Virus record (IMG/VR): IMGVR_UViG_3300031227_000504
Coordinates: 1-21,568 of that record
Length of the DNA: 21,568 nucleotides
Reading direction: 5' to 3' (one strand)
Source of the DNA: a virus
The notes beneath the pieces are model-generated. The model was not told the origin of the DNA and ran no database searches. It saw only the letters and a list, made by a program, of their open reading frames with translations. The translations under genes and the position numbers were made by a program. Each line of letters starts with the position of its first letter. The first letter of the stretch is position 1. This document shows positions 15,344 to 19,171 of this stretch, in pieces.

Positions 15344-15574
15344 ATGAAGAAACAAGAACAAGATGATTTGTTTGGCAGACTGGATGAAAGAACCTCTAAC
15401 ACATGGAACTCAGTAGAGAAGATAGAAAAGCATCTTGTCAAACTGAATAGTGCTGTAGTTGACAATGCAATCTCCTGTGCTAAACTTAAAACGAGTATTA
15501 AAAATCTGTGGGTTGTCTTGACCCTGATAGTTATAGTTCTTGCTGGAGCTCTCGGTTTGGGTGTTGCGCTATAG
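15344..15574 (+). CDS. Coiled-coil plus C-terminal membrane helix protein (XhlA-like layout)
   Basis: The preferred start is ATG 15344, with AAAGGA 7 bases upstream (76 aa); ATG 15296 in the same frame would add 16 residues but has a weaker site. Residues 1-45 (KKQEQDDLFGRLDERTSNTWNSVEKIEKHLVKLNSAV) are a heptad-rich helix and residues about 54-76 (LWVVLTLIVIVLAGALGLGVAL) a single membrane span ending at the C-terminus. This is the architecture of XhlA-type lysis/holin-associated proteins. It is the last plus-strand gene, 36 bases before the terminator hairpin. No endolysin lies next to it in this window. Confidence 0.6.
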   Translation: MKKQEQDDLFGRLDERTSNTWNSVEKIEKHLVKLNSAVVDNAISCAKLKTSIKNLWVVLTLIVIVLAGALGLGVAL

Positions 15575-15609
15575 CTGAGAGCCACTAGAATAGACGACAG
15601 AGCCTTTAT

Positions 15610-15649
15610 ACCCCTAATCAAGTAGTAATGCTTGGTTGGGGGTGTTTTT
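15610..15649 (+). terminator. Strong intrinsic terminator between convergent gene blocks
   Basis: Arms 15610-15622 (ACCCCTAATCAAG) and 15631-15643 (CTTGGTTGGGGGT) pair over 13 positions including two G-U pairs, with an 8-base loop and a following GTTTTT. It ends the late operon. The last codons and the stop (TGA at 15620-15618) of the minus-strand methyltransferase piece lie within this hairpin. No T tract is present in the minus direction. Confidence 0.85.
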
Positions 15650-16358
15650 CTCTTAAATCAAAGACTGATTGCCGACATCTATTCGCTGCAATCTCGCAAT
15701 ACTTCTCCTCTATCTCTATCCCTATACACTTGCGGTTTAATAACTGGCTTGCCAATAAGGTTGTCCCTGACCCTGAGAACGGGTCTATGACCGTATCCCC
15801 TACCCTAGAGCCTAGTGTTATAAGATAGGACATTAACTTGAGGGGTTTTACTGTGGCGTGGATATTACCCATTTTAGTGGCGTGTTTAGCTTCTTCGTTT
15901 TCACGGGGAGCATTCACCCTCATATTATTCCGTTCTGGCAAACCCTCACACCCCTTATTCTTCTCGGACTTTGAAGCCTTTGGTGTAATCAGAAAGGGGA
16001 AGGTCTTTTGTGCTGACTCTGGTAAATCCTTAAACCCATCGAATTCGATGGCATTAAACCATTTATCTAAATCAAAATATCTTGAGAATGAGCCTGAATC
16101 AGAATACTCACTATCACCCTTTCTAATACCAAGTCCTTTGCCACCACCAAAAACTAGAGTATCTCTTTTGTGGTCGTGTGTATGAGGGATTGATTTACTT
16201 ATCTTCCCATCATTCAGTACATCACTAAATCTTTTAACCATAGCCACCACCTGCTCATCAGGCATCTGTCTAAATTCATCAAGGGTCACACCATAATAAT
16301 CAAGTGTGTCAATCAAAGTTTCTGTCGGCTGATTATCTTCTGTTAAATATGGATTCAT
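15618..16358 (-). CDS. DNA methyltransferase, third (C-terminal) piece with the cofactor-binding motif
   Basis: Carries the AdoMet-binding half of a beta-class N6-adenine/N4-cytosine methyltransferase: HATVKPLKLM at 167-176, then motif I DPFSGSGTT at 192-200 and CIGIEIEEKYCEIA at 211-224. It lacks motif IV (DPPY), which is in the piece at 18054-18725. Residues from about 44 (FSDVLNDGK) through SGSFSRYFD and PKASKSEKNKGCEGLP match the middle-to-end part of intact family members as I recall them. The first 40 residues do not match, but resemble the extra N-terminus of the second piece (LDYYGVTLDEFRQMPD here). ATG 16358 overlaps the HNH stop as ATGA, with GAGG upstream. It cannot be active alone; assembly with the other pieces is inferred. 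Confidence 0.85.
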   Translation of the reverse strand: MNPYLTEDNQPTETLIDTLDYYGVTLDEFRQMPDEQVVAMVKRFSDVLNDGKISKSIPHTHDHKRDTLVFGGGKGLGIRKGDSEYSDSGSFSRYFDLDKWFNAIEFDGFKDLPESAQKTFPFLITPKASKSEKNKGCEGLPERNNMRVNAPRENEEAKHATKMGNIHATVKPLKLMSYLITLGSRVGDTVIDPFSGSGTTLLASQLLNRKCIGIEIEEKYCEIAANRCRQSVFDLREKHPQPSITT

Positions 16359-16909
16359 AATTTGTTATTCCTCGTCTTTCCCTTATGTATTTTCTTATGG
16401 CAACTAGCACAAAGAGTGATACCATTTTCTAATTCAAATCTTAATTCGGGGTAGTCTTTCCAAGATAAAATATGATGAGCTTTCACTTCGGCTCTCTCCC
16501 CACAAATTTGGCAAGTATAATCATCTCTTTTATGGACTTCCTTTCTCCAACGAGCAAATTTCCAACCTCGGTCTATTCTTTCAATCCTACCAATTATGTC
16601 AAAGAATTTAATCCGTGCTTCGGATATTGCTTTCTTGTGTTCTTCGCTAAATTCCCGACCCTTCGCTTTATCTGATATTAACCTTTTTGTTATATCGCTT
16701 CTCGGCTTGCCATAGGATAGATTATCACCCTTCTTTTTACTCATTCCCTTATTCCAGCCACGCCCCTTTTCCAAATTCTTGACTATATCAGGATGTAACT
16801 TATAGAGGGCTGACCTATGCTCTTTACAGCATACATACTTACCCCGTTCACAAGGCTTCCGATATACAGGCTTGTGGCAAATTTCACATTCAGCATTTGG
16901 CTTTCTCAT
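16355..16909 (-). CDS. HNH homing-type endonuclease with zinc finger and NUMOD3-like repeat
   Basis: DNA endonuclease, probably a mobile homing type. Using ATG 16909 (184 aa): a zinc finger at C8/C11/C27/H31, a NUMOD3-like DNA-binding segment at about 68-101 (KGREFSEEHKKAISEARI), then the HNH core with C133, C136, H145-H146, N162, C167, C170 and H175 (AHHILSWKD...NGITLCASCHKKIH). All expected metal and catalytic ligands are present, so it looks intact. A GTG at 16924 would add five residues but lies upstream of the predicted transcript start. The gene sits between two methyltransferase pieces; its stop overlaps the start of the third as ATGA. The AGGAG ends only one base before the ATG, too close for normal Shine-Dalgarno use. 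Confidence 0.85.
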   Translation of the reverse strand: MRKPNAECEICHKPVYRKPCERGKYVCCKEHRSALYKLHPDIVKNLEKGRGWNKGMSKKKGDNLSYGKPRSDITKRLISDKAKGREFSEEHKKAISEARIKFFDIIGRIERIDRGWKFARWRKEVHKRDDYTCQICGERAEVKAHHILSWKDYPELRFELENGITLCASCHKKIHKGKTRNNKL

Positions 16910-16915
16910 ACTCCT

Positions 16916-16944
16916 ATTATACACTGGAATACGACCATTGTCAA
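16916..16944 (-). promoter_or_regulatory. Consensus sigma70 promoter of the HNH gene
   Basis: On the minus strand, TTGACA (16944-16939), 17-base spacer, TATAAT (16921-16916). The usual +1 falls on 16909, the A of the HNH ATG, giving a leaderless transcript. The TTGACA contains the TGA stop of methyltransferase piece 2. Confidence 0.85.
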
Positions 16945-17354
16945 GTTAGTTTATTCTTAGCTTCTATAAGAGCTTCTATATTAATATCTATTGCCGAGCC
17001 ACAAATTAGATTGGCTGGGAAACGACCAGAGGGATTGGGGAAACTGGGGATCGGAGTGCAATCTTTCCATCCGTAGGTTTGAGTAGTTGTTGGTTGCCCC
17101 GCATTGCTAGGTGTCGCCTTTTCTACATCCTCCTCACTCTCATACGGCACTCGGCACGAGTCCAACCAAGTAATACCTTTTTGATTTTTAAGGGCTTGGT
17201 CAACAAAGGTCTTACATCCCTGCCAATAGTCAGGGGCTAGTTTCTTATCGGGATAGGATAAAAGCTCATCAAGCGTTATTCCTAATATATCAAGGGCTTG
17301 TTTCCCCTCGTTTGTAAGTTTGGCATTGCCATCTATTATCTCATAATATTGCAT
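16941..17354 (-). CDS. DNA methyltransferase, second (middle) piece
   Basis: 137 aa without any catalytic motif of its own. Residues about 48-71 (KTFVDQALKNQKGITWLDSCRVPYESEED) and 95-117 (GWKDCTPIPSFPNPSGRFPANLI) match the central region that lies between motif IV and motif I in intact phage methyltransferases of this type, from memory of the family. The first 47 residues do not, and contain LDILGITLDELLSYPD at 21-36, similar to the start of piece 3. Its C-terminal tail (EALIEAKNKLT) ends inside the next gene's promoter. ATG 17354 has AAGGAG 8 bases upstream, within the end of the Vsr-like gene (19-base overlap), so translation is coupled. It is probably the target-recognition/linker part of a split enzyme. 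Confidence 0.7.
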   Translation of the reverse strand: MQYYEIIDGNAKLTNEGKQALDILGITLDELLSYPDKKLAPDYWQGCKTFVDQALKNQKGITWLDSCRVPYESEEDVEKATPSNAGQPTTTQTYGWKDCTPIPSFPNPSGRFPANLICGSAIDINIEALIEAKNKLT

Positions 17355-18046
17355 AACTGCTCCTTAAACTTACCCAATAAAATATCACTTCCCTTCAACC
17401 TAATTACAGTATAGCCATTAGCGATTAGTTGCTTCGTTTGTCTTCTATCCACCTTTATTCTTGCTGGCTTTGAGTGCCAATAATCACCATCGGCAAATAT
17501 ACAAACCTCAGAATTAACTATAAAGTCAACAAGGGCGATGCCCTCAATATCCTCTTGTTTTTCATAGACAACCGCTTTTTCTATCAGCCAATTTTCCACG
17601 ATAGCTTCAATATCGGTATTCTGTTTCCTTTGATTTTTTATGCTGTCTATCGCCCTACACCTCTGGGAACAATATAACGGTTTCTTGTCTATCCTACTAA
17701 CTGCCGACTGAACTCGGTAAAAATTACCACCACAAACCTTACACTGGAGAATTATGCCCTTCTTTGCTCTATTCTTAGAATGATATGAATTAGCACAACT
17801 CTTTGAGCAAAAGCTATCTTTATCTTGCATACAACGCTTAACCAAAATAGACTTGCCACAACCGAGACATTGCTTCTCTATCTTCCCACCTTGCCAATGC
17901 GGATGGTTTTCGGGCTGCTCGGCTTTCATTCTTATTGACTGGGCTTTGTCCTTACACTTCCTAGAGCAGTAAAGCCCACCACCCCTAGCAACAAAAGCAG
18001 GCGATATATCAAACTTAACGCTACATACCTTACATATTCTTTCCAT
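17336..18046 (-). CDS. Zinc-finger, Vsr-like (EDxHD/PD-D/ExK) homing-type endonuclease
   Basis: Probable mobile endonuclease, not HNH. Using ATG 18046 (236 aa) there are three zinc fingers: C5/C8/C27/C31, C60/C63/C80/C84 and C102/C105/C126/C130. A linker follows, then a C-terminal nuclease domain: YEKQEDIEGIALVDFIV (D174) and CIFADGDYWHSKP (186-191), then RRQTKQLIANGYTVIRLKGSDIL. This is the layout of Vsr/DUF559-type folds used by EDxHD homing endonucleases such as I-Bth0305I; homology is judged by pattern only. GTG 18064 would add six residues but is upstream of the predicted transcript start. The gene lies between pieces 1 and 2 of the methyltransferase and overlaps piece 2 by 19 bases. All fingers and core residues look intact. 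Confidence 0.75.
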   Translation of the reverse strand: MERICKVCSVKFDISPAFVARGGGLYCSRKCKDKAQSIRMKAEQPENHPHWQGGKIEKQCLGCGKSILVKRCMQDKDSFCSKSCANSYHSKNRAKKGIILQCKVCGGNFYRVQSAVSRIDKKPLYCSQRCRAIDSIKNQRKQNTDIEAIVENWLIEKAVVYEKQEDIEGIALVDFIVNSEVCIFADGDYWHSKPARIKVDRRQTKQLIANGYTVIRLKGSDILLGKFKEQLCNIMR

Positions 18047-18052
18047 ACTCTT

Positions 18053-18082
18053 ATTATACCACAATCAACTTTTGTTTGTCAA
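18053..18082 (-). promoter_or_regulatory. Consensus sigma70 promoter of the Vsr-like gene
   Basis: On the minus strand, TTGACA (18082-18077), 18-base spacer, TATAAT (18058-18053) with an extended -10 (TGG before it). The expected +1 falls on 18046, the A of ATG. The promoter encodes the last residues (LDKQKLIVV) and the TAA stop of methyltransferase piece 1. Confidence 0.85.
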
Positions 18083-18725
18083 GCAATAACTGCTTCAGTT
18101 CCCTTAACTGCTCAAAGTCTAAAGCTATCTTTTCTTTATCTGTTTTCTGTAAGGGTTTCATGGCTACTATAATTACTTCTACTGCTGGCTTAGGTTGGAA
18201 GCCCCCATAACTACCATCTAGGGCTTTGGCTTGGGGAGTTGATGGTAGAGTGTCATCCACTGTAATATACTCAGTCTTTGCCCCCATTGTCGGGAGTGCT
18301 GATTTTTGACCCTCCGCCCTCGCTTTCATCCGTTGCCCAATAACTTCCCTTTCAGCCCCCAACCTCTTATCCACTGCCTTCCCTATATTCTGTGCCTTTG
18401 GGAATCCTGACGCATAAGTCCAGTATATCGGGGTAAAGTCTACCCTGAATCCAGCATCCTCTAAGCTAATAATCATCCTGCTTAGACAGTCGCTTCTAGG
18501 TATGCTCATTACAAAGGCAAATGCCCCAGGCTTAAGGACTCTTAGACATTCCTTCCAGATGCTAATATCAGGTAACGCTTTATCCCACGATTTAGACATG
18601 AATGAAATCCCATAAGGCGGATCGGTGCATAAGAGGTCTGTGCTATCGCTCTCAAGCCCTCTCAATACGGTTAGTGCATCAGAGCAATACTGTGTTACAA
18701 AATTATCCTTATAATATTGTTTCAT
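18054..18725 (-). CDS. DNA methyltransferase, first (N-terminal) piece with catalytic motif IV
   Basis: Catalytic half of a beta-class DNA methyltransferase. Motif IV TDPPYG is at 34-39, followed by ISFMSKSWDKALPDISIWKECLRVLKPGAF and SLEDAGFRVDFTPIYWTYASGFPKAQNIGKAVDKRLGAER, typical of phage N4/N6 enzymes. It ends its recognisable part with YGGFQPKPAVEVIIVAMKPL (173-192). The remaining 31 residues (QKTDKEKIALDFEQLRELKQ onward) are a charged helical tail not expected there. No AdoMet motif I; that is in piece 3. ATG 18725 overlaps the previous stop as ATGA. The base specificity cannot be read from sequence. Confidence 0.85.
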   Translation of the reverse strand: MKQYYKDNFVTQYCSDALTVLRGLESDSTDLLCTDPPYGISFMSKSWDKALPDISIWKECLRVLKPGAFAFVMSIPRSDCLSRMIISLEDAGFRVDFTPIYWTYASGFPKAQNIGKAVDKRLGAEREVIGQRMKARAEGQKSALPTMGAKTEYITVDDTLPSTPQAKALDGSYGGFQPKPAVEVIIVAMKPLQKTDKEKIALDFEQLRELKQLLLDKQKLIVV

Positions 18726-19171
18726 TTTCCCTCATATTGCTTTTTATTAGCCTTCCATCGTGGATACGAGACGTCTTTGCGGTCATTACCCTTGATATAC
18801 AGTAAAACATTCATTGCTGGTCTACTTAGTCCTTGTATCTTACTCTTCTTTCCCTCCATTACGATAACTACTGAGTCGTTTTGTATCTCGTCTACCAGAG
18901 CTTCTCCGGCTTCTTTGGTAGTCTTTAACCTGATTTCTACCTCTGCTAATATCTCTGTAACCCTAGTGAAATAAGCCTCACTGTTTAACCCCGCTTCAAA
19001 TATTGAGCCTATAGCATAATCAGGCCTATGTGGCCACTCGCCTTTCATCAATAGACTGCTATGCTTGATAATCCAAATCACCTGATAAGGGCACCATCTA
19101 ATCTCACCATATGTATACCATGCTTTACCGGCACAGTCTTTATAACTCTTGCAATCGTAGCACTCTTTCAT
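18722..19171 (-). CDS. Hypothetical Cys-rich phage protein (149 aa)
   Basis: No named family. The N-terminus has a Cys cluster (CYDCKSYKDC at 4-13 and WC near residue 26-27) that may bind a metal. A conserved-looking aromatic segment follows (IRWCPYQVIWIIKHSSLLMKGEWPHRPDY), then helices. The C-terminus is a small helix-turn-helix-like segment (LSRPAMNVLLYIKGNDRKDVSYPRWKANKKQ). This last part, an 'LS..a...L.yi.G..rk..sy..W' pattern, could contact DNA. I recall similar unnamed proteins in other phage early regions. It starts 5 bases after the DUF4406-like gene and its stop overlaps the methyltransferase start. Confidence 0.65.
   Translation of the reverse strand: MKECYDCKSYKDCAGKAWYTYGEIRWCPYQVIWIIKHSSLLMKGEWPHRPDYAIGSIFEAGLNSEAYFTRVTEILAEVEIRLKTTKEAGEALVDEIQNDSVVIVMEGKKSKIQGLSRPAMNVLLYIKGNDRKDVSYPRWKANKKQYEGK

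Follow-up and report, generated by a model that had tools for sequence, protein, structure and literature searches.

A methyltransferase gene in three open reading frames

The window analysed here is the whole of a 21,568-nucleotide (nt) stretch of viral DNA, IMG/VR record IMGVR_UViG_3300031227_000504. On its minus strand lie three methyltransferase open reading frames (ORFs), termed p1, p2 and p3 in the direction of reading, which are separated by two endonuclease genes, endonuclease 1 between p1 and p2 and endonuclease 2 between p2 and p3 (Table 1). The Pfam family N6_N4_Mtase matches p1 over profile positions 2-110 (E 4.5e-5, just under the curated cut-off) and p3 over positions 147-220 (E 8e-24). 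In a family-library search p2 alone gave no family match; by tblastn and blastp its residues 48-117 fall in the middle of intact relatives, and its native part corresponds to the first half of the target-recognition region. Measured against a methyltransferase profile that we built from five intact homologues, p1 covers positions 15-200, p2 200-277 and p3 279-464, so that the pieces are consecutive, practically without gap or overlap. Motif IV (TDPPYG, in p1) precedes the target-recognition region and motif I (DPFSGSGTT, in p3) follows it, which is the order of the beta class. The catalytic motifs of p1 and p3 are intact, and no stop codon interrupts the native part of any of the three pieces.

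L009, L011, L012, L018 and L089 carry an uninterrupted gene, as do most of the 80 loci that we found with the same profile. Nearly all complete copies among these loci consist of a single ORF, the exceptions being a contig near-identical to the window, locus L218 and a few frame breaks; the break in L252 looks like a simple frameshift. Modelled with AlphaFold from 56 sequences (mean predicted local distance difference test score, pLDDT, 70; an earlier run with 5 sequences was too poor, at 49.5), the intact relative L009 has CcrM (6pbd, E 3.7e-12), M.BceJIV, M.MboIIA and M.RsrI as its best Foldseek matches. The sequence evidence thus confirms that a single beta-class N4/N6 DNA methyltransferase is spread over three ORFs in the window. 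A preliminary description of this DNA had proposed as much, and the ORFs lie where it placed them, with Pfam matches, motif order and the fold of the intact relative all pointing to one enzyme; the alignment and the search for continuous genes that it recommended bore this out, as did the domain matches of the zinc-finger Vsr-like and zinc-finger HNH genes it had seen between the pieces. Its description of the ORFs as parts of a methyltransferase applies to their native portions, while each ORF also holds a non-methyltransferase tail at the breaks. Assembly error is argued against by a second IMG/VR contig, 3300035698_002005, which has the same arrangement and differs from the window by 5 mismatches in 12,368 bases.

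The two breaks, sites A and B, can be placed by comparison with L218, which is among the closest relatives and, like the intact homologues, is empty at both. The native part of p1 matches L218 DNA up to CCCTTACAGAAAA, and the first 53 nt of the native part of p2 align with it directly. Break A falls within ATGAAGCCACTATCCGAAAAGACCTTT, as ..VAMKPL/EKTFVDQ.. in protein, and break B between GGTCGTTTCCCAGCCAATCTAATT and AGTGATGTACTGAATGATGGG, separating GRFPANL from ..SDVLNDG, with the native limits given in Table 1. Conservation in the family is highest at the positions adjoining the two sites, K190/P191 (96-98%) at site A and G262/R263/A266/N267 (94-98%) at site B. In the L009 model, site A is predicted to lie in the loop between strand 182-189 and helix 197-204, and site B in a probable loop after strand 268-270, in a stretch of low confidence; a third site, C, which is discussed below, would correspond to the loop at about 358-394.

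Table 1. Features of the split locus (window positions) and candidate stop-codon hops in other phages
Feature	Position or locus	Strand	Remark
p1, methyltransferase ORF	18725-18054	(-)	223 aa
p2, methyltransferase ORF	17354-16941	(-)	137 aa
p3, methyltransferase ORF	16358-15618	(-)	246 aa
p1 native part, motif IV TDPPYG, ends ..VAMKPL at site A	18143..18725	(-)	~13-196 of intact L009/L011/L012
p1 C-tail, ..TDKEKIALDFEQLRELKQLLLDKQKLIVV, stop	18054..18142	(-)	without counterpart in intact relatives
p2 N-tail, MQYYEIIDGNAKLTNEGKQALDILGITLDELLSYPDKKLAPDYWQGC	17214..17354	(-)	47 aa; absent from intact homologues
p2 native part, KTFVDQALKN..GRFPANLI	17004..17213	(-)	by protein alignment to intact homologues
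p2 C-tail, CGSAIDINIEALIEAKNKLT, stop	16941..17003	(-)	~20 residues; absent from intact homologues
p3 N-tail, MNPYLTEDNQPTETLIDTLDYYGVTLDEFRQMPDEQVVAMVKRF	16227..16358	(-)	44 residues; absent from intact homologues
p3 native part, SDVLNDGK..HATVKP, DPFSGSGTT	15618..16226	(-)	L009 residue ~273 to 467
Endonuclease 1, three CxxC..C zinc fingers and Vsr/DUF559-like nuclease (..FADGDYWHSKP..)	17336..18046	(-)
Endonuclease 2, zinc finger, NUMOD3-like region and HNH nuclease	16355..16909	(-)	HNH PF01844 E 5.1e-9
Sigma-70 promoter-like site, TTGACA-18-TATAAT, 12/12	18053..18082	(-)	inside p1 tail, 6 nt before endonuclease 1 ATG
Sigma-70 promoter-like site, TTGACA-17-TATAAT, 12/12	16916..16944	(-)	6 nt before endonuclease 2 ATG
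Shine-Dalgarno AAGGAG	17360..17365	(-)	5 nt before p2 ATG, inside endonuclease 1 end
Candidate hop loci	L004:4380-4640, L274:4560-4780, L273:1100-1320, L300:4480-4760, L334:2440-2760, L336:2500-2720
Candidate hop ACC-UAGA-GCC	OwlsT2W, Malithi, Brusacoram
Candidate hop ACC-UAAU-GCC	Fishburne
Candidate hop ACC-UAGG-GCC	L300
Candidate hop ACG-UAG-GCG	L274
Candidate hop ACG-UGA-AUG	L273
Candidate hop ACU-UA-GCC	EleanorGeorge

Tails, endonucleases and translation starts at the breaks

The upstream pieces end, and the downstream pieces begin, with the tails listed in Table 1; that of p1 measures about 29 residues, its native boundary being exact to about 3 residues. The N-tails of p2 and p3 share the pattern LD..G.TLDE....PD, and their similarity was reached by 0 and 1 of 20000 shuffles in two tests. 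The p2 N-tail also resembles that of locus L265, whose methyltransferase is interrupted at site B (2/20000 shuffles reach the score). Searched against 59,607 ORFs, the tail profiles match only split junctions at E<0.1, and in a leave-one-out comparison the p2 tail came up at rank 1 and the p3 tail at rank 2. A search of viral contigs and named phages for this N-tail, which we call type 1, yielded, apart from the near-identical contig, only a match to a small ORF of L092 that looks like chance.

Endonuclease 1 matches DUF559 (E 2.4e-4, above the gathering score), MTES_1575 (1.2e-4) and Vsr (9.6e-4). The preliminary description had called the two endonucleases unrelated, and so they are in their nuclease domains. 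Taken as a whole, the genes share parts by way of a third one: the endonuclease at site B of L265 (3704-4582) is a chimera, the first ~90 residues of which are 40% identical to the HNH gene of the window and the remainder 31% identical to its Vsr-like gene. By this evidence the front module seems to be tied to the insertion site and the nuclease domain to be exchangeable. A genome-contig scan for the endonuclease returned one weak cyanobacterial relative only. Related endonucleases occur in Microcystis phage MaeS and Halorubrum virus BLv36, and we saw no adjoining methyltransferase annotation in either.

The two promoter-like sites of Table 1 are the only ones in the window with a match of at least 11/12, the expected number of 12/12 sites being 0.013 per window. 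Because just 6 nt separate each -10 box from the ATG, transcripts of the endonuclease genes may lack a leader. The promoter-start pattern had to be discarded as a signature of the elements: when viral contigs were scanned for TTGACA-N17/18-TATAATANGAGTATG, 91 stretches came up, nearly all before other phage genes, so that the pattern indicates a host-type promoter and not one element family. Both p2 and p3 have their own start codons, in frame with the native sequence; the p3 start is coupled, its ATG overlapping the stop of endonuclease 2 (ATGA).

Splits at a third site of the same enzyme family

Related zinc-finger endonucleases split the family at site B in L265 and at site C, just before the HPTVKP motif, in a series of other phages. 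In L218, sites A and B are unsplit and site C is interrupted by a 242-residue relative of endonuclease 1 (33% identity), and site-C splits also occur in L272/L273, L274/L275, L278 and L300, as well as in the cultured mycobacteriophages Malithi, Seagreen, Kari, OwlsT2W, EleanorGeorge, Brusacoram and Fishburne (loci L330, L332, L333, L004 and L334-L336, respectively). Malithi, Seagreen and Kari carry a Vsr-like endonuclease in antisense orientation at site C; OwlsT2W and its relatives have kept the split without any endonuclease. The junction DNA is matched by 84 mycobacteriophage records, most at >=99% identity and several without endonuclease; the pieces are annotated there as two methylases, usually with a 29-residue hypothetical protein between them.

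The tails at site C, type 2, follow patterns of their own, Y.LK...P.DI..EI.K.L for the C-tails and IS.EQ[FY]..LP..L..YF for the N-tails. In leave-one-out comparisons among the non-mycobacteriophage phages, N-tails came up at rank 1 in 5/6 cases and C-tails at ranks 1-4 in 5/6. The N-tail of the mycobacteriophages and that of L274 match (0/20000 shuffles reach the score); by shuffle test the match of the mycobacteriophage C-tail to other type-2 C-tails was not significant.

The N-tail ORF of several site-C splits has HPT immediately before its stop codon, and VKP resumes 2-4 nt and one codon later (Table 1). Judging from the codons involved, the landing codon could pair again with the peptidyl-tRNA-Thr, one or two of the pairs being G.U, and HPTVKP, a motif conserved at 94-100% per position across the family, would thereby be restored. 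Just upstream of the candidate hop lie a GGAGG-like site and a stable hairpin in which bases have changed and are still paired (z -2.2 to -3.8), the same kinds of feature as in T4 gene 60 (PMC5009743). Alternatively, the downstream piece may be made by initiation at a downstream start. The frame is continuous through site C in L218 and L278. The candidate hop has no bearing on the window, given the in-frame starts of p2 and p3.

Other observations concern individual members of the family. The downstream site-C piece of L218 (5846-6121) has DPFAGSFTT as motif I in place of DPF.GSGTT, which may reflect a damaged enzyme or a sequencing error. In L306 (2097-4618), a related endonuclease stands directly behind the methyltransferase ORF and the two end nearly alike (AAQLSSDDFEDLII in the endonuclease, AEQLSSDDFGDLLI in the methyltransferase), as if an insertion had duplicated the methyltransferase 3' end. 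In L014, L015, L016, L017 and L090, the target-recognition module KGIMWLDDCRIPF..GRFTPNLL..SRYYDLDKWF is absent from the methyltransferase and found in one or two small downstream ORFs, an arrangement resembling a catalytic core whose specificity modules stand alone and are sometimes duplicated. Phage Taj (L006) has a LAGLIDADG domain in frame, as reported (PMC9957025), and OwlsT2W (L004) and Pollywog (L005) have a long in-frame insert beside the KPL motif near site A, which may be the ShiLan domain of the same report.

Proposed reassembly, its alternatives and known systems

We consider it likely that the methyltransferase of the window is a homing-endonuclease gene in pieces of the Aeh1 nrdA type, the products of which reassemble in trans through tails derived from the mobile elements. 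Consecutive pieces, a free-standing endonuclease in the break, relatives with empty sites and tails at both breaks are all found here. Two homing-endonuclease elements would have invaded one phage methyltransferase gene, at the conserved motifs of sites A and B, to give a gene whose product is now three separate polypeptides. Each element would have given the upstream piece tail codons and a stop, brought its own promoter and endonuclease gene, and provided the downstream piece with a start codon and an N-terminal tail. By analogy with Aeh1 NrdA, an active enzyme is most likely formed by non-covalent association of the three polypeptides, with the help of the element-derived tails; the recurrence of the N-terminal tails at other breaks suggests that they help the pieces to find each other. 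From this arrangement we infer homing by the endonucleases, docking by the tails and DNA methylation by the assembled enzyme. Several points weigh against this reading. Type-1 loci number only two, the window and L265; a profile of the two window N-tails missed the L265 tail (rank 184); and homology among the type-1 C-tails, which are too short, was not significant (1045-1999/20000 shuffles reach the score). The near-identical contig differs only once in the methyltransferase region, by an F-to-Y exchange, too few differences for a selection test, and some of the same features would be expected of a dying gene that had recently taken up insertions.

Such gene decay is the main rival to reassembly in trans. 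Two homing endonucleases would have entered a dispensable gene and left a broken pseudogene without a working enzyme, the tails being accidental read-out of the elements; the frequent gain and loss of phage methyltransferases in this family (PMC9957025) would fit, as would the altered motif I of L218, which is split at C. We nevertheless regard decay as unlikely, given that the native parts are fully open with intact catalytic motifs, that p2 starts behind a ribosome-binding site and p3 by stop-start coupling, that the two N-tails of the window are related, and that the same kind of split has been kept in the mycobacteriophage records, several of them without endonuclease. It is about equally improbable that the pieces work with irrelevant tails, associating through their native interface. 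Many split enzymes do self-associate, and in L014-L017 and L090 the target-recognition module forms separate ORFs without such tails; however, related N-tails occur at different splits, and in Aeh1 NrdA the tails derived from the mobile element are reportedly interaction domains, to go by the title of Crona et al. 2011 (cited in PMC3267527).

A joining of the pieces in the window, be it by a group I or group II intron, by a split intein or by ribosomal bypassing, we hold to be very improbable. It would have parallels: Vsr-like (EDxHD) homing endonucleases are said by Dassa et al. 2009 (cited in PMC3653736) to accompany split inteins in fractured genes. In T4 gene 60, bypassing goes together with a homing endonuclease (PMC5009743). 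In positions 15500-18900, however, we found no match to an Rfam intron model at E up to 1, only a weak snoRNA model; the tails gave no Pfam intein match at E up to 10, only a weak DUF, and p1 has no Cys at its junction; and with the in-frame starts of p2 and p3 no recoding of the T4 gene 60 type is needed.

Returning to reassembly through tails, we tentatively extend it, with slightly more doubt than conviction, to a widespread class of homing elements in phage methyltransferase genes. These would do without splicing and carry matched docking tails, type 1 at sites A and B and type 2 at site C; nuclease domains would move between elements, each site retaining its front DNA-binding module, and several site-C members would add a programmed stop-codon hop (take-off ACC/ACG/ACU, landing mostly GCC/GCG). 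Selfish genes inside useful genes normally need an intron or an intein to avoid killing them. If the tails dock the pieces, they would open a third, simpler route, available at several sites of one enzyme and usable twice per gene, by which single-chain enzymes become multi-subunit; tail pairs would then amount to compact protein-assembly tags of natural origin. With the mycobacteriophage cases, this question comes within reach of standard genetics.

Among known systems, CcrM (6pbd), M.BceJIV, M.MboIIA and M.RsrI are similar in fold to the intact relative L009 (12-18% identity) and are single polypeptides. Actinophage DNA methylases, in which an intein, a LAGLIDADG endonuclease and the ShiLan domain have been described (Gosselin et al. 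2023, PMC9957025), belong to the same broad family, p1 being ~40% identical to the mycobacteriophage members, and likewise harbour mobile elements at conserved sites. Their insertions are in frame, unlike those of the window, and the main text of that paper contains no Vsr, HNH or two-gene split. In fractured genes, a gene is split by a Vsr-like endonuclease as in the window, with a split intein that the window junctions lack. T4 gene 39/mobA/gene 60 and gene 43 of phage 25, both from T4-type phages, resemble the window in that a gene is split together with a homing endonuclease, and the products of phage 25 gene 43 co-purify and are active (PMC2988022); both are single splits, and T4 gene 60 additionally has a 50-nt translational bypass that the window does not need. 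Closest is nrdA-a/mobE/nrdA-b of Aeromonas phage Aeh1, where a homing endonuclease likewise splits an enzyme gene without intron or intein and the split NrdA enzyme is active (PMC2988022). Aeh1 has one split, an HNH endonuclease only and a ribonucleotide reductase as host, in contrast to the two splits, two nuclease types and DNA methyltransferase of the window; its tails are compared with those of the window by their reported role. The preliminary description was right to invoke Aeh1, whereas its view that two splits in one methyltransferase would be unusual is tempered by the splitting of the same family at a third site in other phages. Homing-endonuclease genes in pieces are thus already known; new, to our knowledge, are a gene split twice, a host gene that encodes a methyltransferase, tails that recur at multiple sites, and the exchange of nuclease domains.

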